Below, piece by piece: positions 7,332 through 9,930 of a DNA stretch of 42,361 nucleotides (the first letter of the stretch is position 1; the number at the start of each line of letters is the position of its first letter). This DNA is from Alphaproteobacteria bacterium (GTDB lineage Bacteria; Pseudomonadota; Alphaproteobacteria; UBA9219; RGZA01). A program made the translations under genes and the position numbers. The notes below the pieces were generated by a model. It was not told where the DNA came from. It did not search any database and worked only from the letters and a program-made list of their open reading frames with translations. The DNA is taken from the NCBI GenBank assembly GCA_010031785.1, contig RGZA01000002.1:1-42361 (forward strand), in the 5' to 3' direction.

Positions 7332-7697
7332 ATGAAAACTGATCTGGATAAAAAAATTCGTGCATTTGAAAAAGTGCGTGCCGATGACAAAGCGCCGATG
7401 TTTGGCAAAAGGACCAGTTCGGGTGCAGGCCGCGCAGGCTATGAATTTATCATCGCCACGCTGTTTTTTGCAGGCATCGGTTTTTTGATCGATATTCAGC
7501 TTGATACAAAACCATGGATCACGCTTGGTATGTTTTTCCTTGGCTTTATCACCGGTGCTTACAATGCCTGGCGTTCCTTGAATGTGGATAGTGAAACGGT
7601 TGGCGCAAAATACAAATCCGCGCCAAAAGTAGCGCTGGATGCACATGATATCGAATTGCCCCATGCGCGCAGAAATGATCACGATCATCCCCTTTAA
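7332..7697 (+). CDS. atpI: ATP synthase protein I (AtpI-like)
   Basis: Two hydrophobic segments (FIIATLFFAGIGFLIDIQLDTKPWITLGMFFLGFITGAYNAWR), directly upstream of atpB; start at ATG 7332. Confidence 0.85.
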   Translation: MKTDLDKKIRAFEKVRADDKAPMFGKRTSSGAGRAGYEFIIATLFFAGIGFLIDIQLDTKPWITLGMFFLGFITGAYNAWRSLNVDSETVGAKYKSAPKVALDAHDIELPHARRNDHDHPL

Positions 7698-7847: not shown

Positions 7848-8462
7848 ATGAGTTCACCTCTCCATCAGTTTGAAATCCATACCGTTTTGCCACTTACCGT
7901 GGCCGGATATGATATTTCGTTGACTAATTCGTCCGTATTCATGTTTTTGGCAGTGATCACATCAACCTTGTTTCTTGTGCTTGGCATGAAGAAAAAGGCG
8001 CTTATTCCGGGCCGTTTTCAGGCTGCAGCAGAAATGCTGCATAATAGCGTTGCCAACATTGTCAGCGATACGGCTGGTGAAAATTCCAAGCCCTATTTCC
8101 CGCTGATCTTTTCGATCTTCATTTTCATTCTGTCTTGCAACATGCTGGGCATGATCCCCTACAGCTTTACCGTTACATCGCACATCCTTATTACGGTCAT
8201 CCTTGGCCTGATCGTGTTTTTTGCAGTAACGCTGACCGGTTTTGCGCGGCACGGCCTGCATTTCTTCTCGCTGTTTATTCCGCACGGTACGCCGCTTCTG
8301 CTCGCGGTGGCATCCGGTGGCTTTACCCTGGCATTGCTGCCGCTTCCGGTTTTGATTAATGTTGCGCTTACTGGCTTTGAATTTTTCGTCGCTGGCCTGC
8401 AAGCCTACATTTTTTCAATTCTTGCGGCTGTGTATCTGCACGACGCTCTGGAACTACACTAG
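7848..8462 (+). CDS. atpB: F0F1 ATP synthase subunit a, internally shortened (204 aa)
   Basis: N-terminal FTNSS-like region, LGMIPYSFTVTSHI, and C-terminal LQAYIFSILAAVYLHDALE are recognisable; the SLxVRLFANM helix is absent. Confidence 0.9.
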   Translation: MSSPLHQFEIHTVLPLTVAGYDISLTNSSVFMFLAVITSTLFLVLGMKKKALIPGRFQAAAEMLHNSVANIVSDTAGENSKPYFPLIFSIFIFILSCNMLGMIPYSFTVTSHILITVILGLIVFFAVTLTGFARHGLHFFSLFIPHGTPLLLAVASGGFTLALLPLPVLINVALTGFEFFVAGLQAYIFSILAAVYLHDALELH

Positions 8463-8495: not shown

Positions 8496-8726
8496 ATGGA
8501 TGCAAATGCAATGAAACTTCTCGCCGCTGGTATCGCGATGCTTGGCACCTTTGGTGCTGGTATTGGTCTTGGCAACATCTTCTCATCATGGTTGACCGGC
8601 ATTGCCCGCAACCCAGCTGCTGCTAAGCAAATGAGCACCGTTGGCTTCATCGGCTTTGCTGCTACTGAACTCGTGCTGTTGCTCGGCTTCGTTGTATCGA
8701 TGCTTTTGCTGTTCGTTGCAAAATAA
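8496..8726 (+). CDS. atpE: F0F1 ATP synthase subunit c
   Basis: 76 aa, GAGIGLGNIFSSWLTGIARNP loop, conserved Glu in GFAATELVLLLGF; ATG at about 8496. Confidence 0.95.
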   Translation: MDANAMKLLAAGIAMLGTFGAGIGLGNIFSSWLTGIARNPAAAKQMSTVGFIGFAATELVLLLGFVVSMLLLFVAK

Positions 8727-8751: not shown

Positions 8752-9426
8752 ATGCTCAAGCATATTCTTCTTTTATGTGCGGTTGTTTTCTTTGCAATCG
8801 GCGGGGCTAACCTAGCGGATGCAAAACCGCATAAGGTTGCGCCAGTAGTTGCACCTGCAGTTGCAGCAGAACAAGCTGCGCCTGCTGCAATAGCTGGTGA
8901 AAAACCCGATGAGACACACCACGAAGAAGAGGCAACTGGCCTGCCGCAGATGGATGTCAGCCGCTTTCCCGGGCAAATCTTCTGGCTCGTCATTACCTTC
9001 ATCATGACGTACCTTTTGATGAAGCATGTGGCGCTGCCGGGCGTTGAACGCACGCTTGAAATACGCGAAAAGCGTATCTCGGCGGATATTGGCGGCTCGA
9101 AAGCAAAGAACGAGGCTGCCAAACATCTGATGGCGGAATATCAGGCACGCCTTGCCAAGGCACGCTCGGATGCACAAAGTGCAACCCGCGCTGTGACGGA
9201 AGAAAATGCGCAAACGGCTGCCGCAGCGCTGCAAGCGCAAACGGCCAAGGTCCATGCGGATATTCAATCAGCGGATGCGCGCATTCTTGCTGAAAAGAAT
9301 AAAGCAATCACTGCGCTGGATAAGGAAGTAGTGAGCGTTGTGGCGGCACTGGTTAAATCGGTTGCCAATATCGCACCTTCTTCTGCCGATATTGAATCGG
9401 CATTGAAGAAAGTAAGGGGCGTTTAA
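8752..9426 (+). CDS. F0F1 ATP synthase subunit b' with N-terminal signal-like extension
   Basis: FPGQIFWLVITFIMTYLLMKHVALPGVERTLEIREKRIS; start taken at MLKHILLL (8752). Confidence 0.9.
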   Translation: MLKHILLLCAVVFFAIGGANLADAKPHKVAPVVAPAVAAEQAAPAAIAGEKPDETHHEEEATGLPQMDVSRFPGQIFWLVITFIMTYLLMKHVALPGVERTLEIREKRISADIGGSKAKNEAAKHLMAEYQARLAKARSDAQSATRAVTEENAQTAAAALQAQTAKVHADIQSADARILAEKNKAITALDKEVVSVVAALVKSVANIAPSSADIESALKKVRGV

Positions 9427-9429
9427 ACC

Positions 9430-9930
9430 ATGCAAGAACTCCTTCATGATCCAACAATATGGTTTGCGGTTTCCTTTGCTATCTTTCTGGTCATTGTCTG
9501 GAAAGCTGGCGGCAAGGCAATTGCTGGCGCGCTTGATAATTACGGCGAAAAAGTAAAAAACGAACTTGAACAGGCGGCTGCGCTGCACGCAGAAGCCGCG
9601 CAATTGCTCGCTGAAACACAAGCCAAGCATAATAACGCATTCAAGGAATCGGATGCGATTATTGCGCGCGCTGAAGAACAGGCCCGTTTGCTTCAAGCCC
9701 AGGCAGAAAAAGATCTCGAAACCACACTTAAACGCCGCGAACAACAAGCGCTTGACCGCATTCAAGTGCTGCAGGAACAAGCCGCTACTGAAATTCGTGC
9801 TCAAGCCGTGGATGTTGCACTCAAAGCCGCTGAAGCTCTCTTGCGCACTAATCTTGGCGCAGAGCACGATAACAAGCTGATCGAACAGCAAACGGCGGAT
9901 ATGGCTAAAGCCCTTAAAAACGTCGCTTAA
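9430..9930 (+). CDS. atpF: F0F1 ATP synthase subunit b
   Basis: TIWFAVSFAIFLVIVWKAG N-terminal TM followed by a long charged helix. Confidence 0.93.
   Translation: MQELLHDPTIWFAVSFAIFLVIVWKAGGKAIAGALDNYGEKVKNELEQAAALHAEAAQLLAETQAKHNNAFKESDAIIARAEEQARLLQAQAEKDLETTLKRREQQALDRIQVLQEQAATEIRAQAVDVALKAAEALLRTNLGAEHDNKLIEQQTADMAKALKNVA

Follow-up and report, generated by a model that had tools for sequence, protein, structure and literature searches.

A shortened ATP synthase subunit a in an alphaproteobacterial draft genome is very probably an assembly artefact

Introduction

Subunit a of ATP synthase carries a stator arginine that has been described as universally conserved in these enzymes (PMC6063947). 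On the side of sequence quality, PMC7111523 describes scaffolding gaps and local assembly errors in genomes assembled from metagenomes, and it notes that local assembly errors, when left uncorrected, bring incorrect protein-coding sequences into public databases. Here we analyse an alphaproteobacterial atpB gene that, as assembled, encodes a subunit a without the stator-arginine helix. The gene lies in the window, the whole stretch of 42,361 nucleotides that forms contig RGZA01000002.1 of a 2.18-Mb draft genome. That genome comprises 294 contigs and is rated at 98.3% for completeness and 1.4% for contamination. We assign a probability of about 0.92 to the reading that the 129-bp loss in atpB is an assembly artefact, of the same origin as losses that we found in other genes of this assembly, and not unusual biology.

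Results

The atpB reading frame (7848..8462, + strand) is unbroken, with neither frameshift nor stop, and encodes 204 residues. It matches F0F1 ATP synthase subunit a by PF00119 (E=1.5e-38; 133.3 bits, exceeding the curated cut-off of 33.9) and by NF004482 (233 bits; cut-off 225). In each of the two genomes of the same genus, G001 (contig JAKFVN010000043.1, an alphaproteobacterial MAG) and G002, the protein has 247 residues. Alignment to both placed the difference in a single block of exactly 43 codons (129 bp), missing between HGTP and GGFT at about 8295..8310 (+ strand), where the best split is defined to within a few bases. The PF00119 match is split: of 217 profile positions, 2-130 and 173-216 are covered and 131-172 are unmatched. 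The lost block, RPFSLxIRLFANMMAGHIMLKVF, includes the stator Arg, the conserved Asn, the His and most of the stator helix, and it is kept, with its Arg, in all homologues shown in the AtpB alignment. The assembled protein therefore has no stator arginine (E. coli R210), the residue expected in the helix that precedes the final transmembrane hairpin. An earlier, sequence-only reading had reported this absence with the frame kept and had put it at about 40 residues or 120 bp; the alignment bears it out, at a size close to that estimate.

Frame retention and conservation of the remaining part are all that would favour a functional, shortened subunit a with a new proton path that dispenses with the stator-arginine helix. 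Inspection of the sequence from the junction to the C-terminus found no Arg or Lys left that might compensate, and both same-genus relatives have a normal 247-residue protein. The universal conservation of the arginine (PMC6063947) also argues against such a protein, and the assembly-wide losses described below offer a simpler cause; we regard it as barely credible. Against G001, the 204 retained codons gave a dN/dS of about 0.07-0.10, indicating strong purifying selection. This value is near that of subunit b (0.04-0.12) and below those of subunits c (0.11-0.24) and b′ (0.15-0.32), so atpB shows no relaxed selection and no sign of long decay.

The rest of the ATP synthase is in place. Upstream of atpB lies a gene for an AtpI-like F0F1 assembly protein (7335..7697, + strand; PF09527), and downstream follow an intact atpE for the 76-residue subunit c (8496..8726, + strand; PF00137; 88% amino acid identity to G001), subunit b′ (8752..9426, + strand; PF00430, with NF006612 as the best NCBIfam match) and subunit b (9430..9930, + strand; PF00430). 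Genes for the F1 subunits AtpA (513 residues), AtpD (475 residues), gamma (296 residues) and delta sit on two other contigs of the genome; all have open frames and essentially full-length matches, delta covering profile positions 10-184 of 186. The sequence-only reading had allowed for a second atpB elsewhere, and none emerged from the 2.18-Mb genome, either by protein search with the intact relative or by profile search. When the missing block was used by itself as a protein query, in a search that had no positive control, no copy turned up on any contig. A search for a Tlc ATP/ADP carrier, prompted by the idea of energy parasitism, left this genome unmatched, and the control genomes likewise.

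Within the order, atpB is present in 33 of 34 genomes. In G028 and G030 the gene is cut or split by contig ends, and an internal loss on one contig occurs only in this genome and in G004, a member of the same family. The G004 loss (G004:C209 ~10502-10472) differs from the one here: it spans roughly 270 bp, breaks the frame and removes residues 77-166 of the relative, and the gene is intact in G003, the other genome of its genus. On its face, this second deletion favours the view that the sampled strain has truly, and very recently, lost this segment of atpB in frame, which would leave F0 inactive and the cell dependent on fermentation or substrate-level phosphorylation. The kept frame and the otherwise intact gene would fit such an event, and some bacteria remain viable when their ATP synthase is mutated. 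However, G004 is itself fragmented (240 contigs, 89% complete), so its atpB deletion may be artefactual too, and in the present genome the F1 genes and the retained part of atpB are still constrained or intact.

A comparison across the assembly weighs further against a deletion in the living cell. We compared all ORFs of at least 100 residues. From this genome 662,610 bases were covered, from G001 409 kb, and from G002 up to 1.18 Mb, 52,000 bases of which were N. Several comparisons had a few small frameshifts and in-frame gaps, which were left out of the loss counts. Close homologues in this genome were present for 217 G002 ORFs. Among these, atpB and six other genes had clean internal losses here, about one per 30 shared ORFs examined, with sizes of about 74-225 bp. 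The affected genes were serA (G000:C1 ~20950; 155 bp, residues 53-102 of 533, between flanks 89 and 91% identical), a uup-like ABC-F gene (160 bp, flanks 94 and 77% identical, with the loss evident against G001 as well as G002), and, against G002, sucA (161 bp), a mechanosensitive channel gene (152 bp) and an M24 aminopeptidase gene (225 bp). The sixth was dnaG (G000:C237 ~11520), where the DNA alignment showed a frame-breaking loss of about 74 bp between highly similar flanks; the 86 bp given by the automated ORF comparison stems from overlapping matches. The loss size is not a multiple of three in five of these six genes. Counting atpB, the coding losses number seven, and five of them measure 129-161 bp. 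In the reverse direction none of 211 own ORFs was broken like this in G002, and G001 and G002 showed no such breaks against each other (202 and 211 ORFs). Fisher tests on the loss counts, with events taken as independent, gave p=0.015 and 0.0005.

We found no second copy of dnaG, serA or sucA, all frame-broken, in the genome. DnaG primase is essential, and a bacterium without it would be unable to replicate. With the only dnaG broken, at least that break must be unreal, and the losses cannot all be genuine. An assembly that cleanly drops sequence at this scale, mostly out of frame and from its sole dnaG, is unreliable as a witness to a real atpB deletion of similar size, and we consider the recent deletion unlikely. 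That the sampled population truly has an AtpB without the stator-arginine helix, with the other losses a separate problem, appears to us quite unlikely as well.

The nucleotide comparison added losses of 82-409 bp situated at or between gene ends. They include 125 bp missing at the C-terminus of BamD and 100 bp at that of an RND adaptor. At G000:C1 ~3740, a 203-bp loss fuses YbeY and a CorC-like/CBS-domain protein in one open frame; the product would pass as a novel fusion protein and is probably the same artefact. In most losses the flanks are highly similar right up to the junction, and we saw no build-up of stops around them.

Two physical causes were examined and rejected. Repeat-mediated deletion, by recombination or slippage, would call for a junction repeat, and none able to explain the losses was present at the best-fit splits. 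As for dropout by base composition, the deleted stretches have a GC content of 0.49-0.54 in the relatives, only slightly unlike that of their flanks.

The assembly bears other marks of processing. Its 662,610 bases compared hold no non-ACGT letter (N), which, despite the 294 contigs, would fit scaffold gaps that were closed or stripped to nothing. Of the 36 contigs listed, 20, including the window contig (42361), have a length that leaves a remainder of 0 or 1 on division by 30; this strong enrichment would point to some uncommon way of trimming or splitting the contigs. The positions of the losses on a 30-base grid showed no pattern by eye.

Discussion

Several conserved single-copy genes that are unrelated to atpB, and intact in the relatives, have clean losses of a similar kind in this assembly. 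Most of these break the frame, the one in essential dnaG included, and together they strongly support an artefactual origin of the shortened atpB. Of the explanations offered by the sequence-only reading, an assembly deletion thus gains strong support; an inactive F0 or an unusual proton-path chemistry finds none, and a second atpB was not found. Two observations count against the artefact: the atpB loss keeps the frame, and the missing block was found on no other contig. Frame retention would be expected by chance in one of three random losses. Most likely, the organism itself has an ordinary atpB of about 247 codons, stator arginine included.

As to technical cause and the exact software step, we infer that a stretch of about 75-225 bp, roughly as long as one read, may have failed to assemble and been dropped, with its flanks joined directly; the range of 129-161 bp, which holds most coding losses, would approximate the length of a short read. 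Gap closing could have gone wrong, or the N run that marks a scaffold gap could have been deleted. In dnaG, serA, sucA, uup and other genes, the same joining error would have occurred.

The main value of the case is as a warning. Clean losses of about 75-225 bp occur in a genome with completeness and contamination ratings of 98.3% and 1.4%, and the protein left by some of them looks plausible and intact. Where a catalytic residue seems to be missing in this genome, the reads should be consulted before biological claims are made. A true atpB loss would bear on the possibility of an F0 motor that works without the arginine, and the evidence opposes it.

Among described assembly problems, those of PMC7111523 come closest; unlike the present case, the available portion of that paper makes no specific mention of clean losses in the range of about 75-225 bp. 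The assembled sequence has several traits of other alphaproteobacterial AtpB proteins (PF00119, NF004482). In the search pieces it is about 80-82% identical to G001 and G002 over residues 1-153 and 67-68% identical over the last 73-74 residues; it retains the Gln of LQAY, as the sequence-only reading had observed, and it shares its place in the atpI-atpB-atpE-b′-b cluster. It departs from them in the 43 codons that bear the stator Arg, Asn and His.
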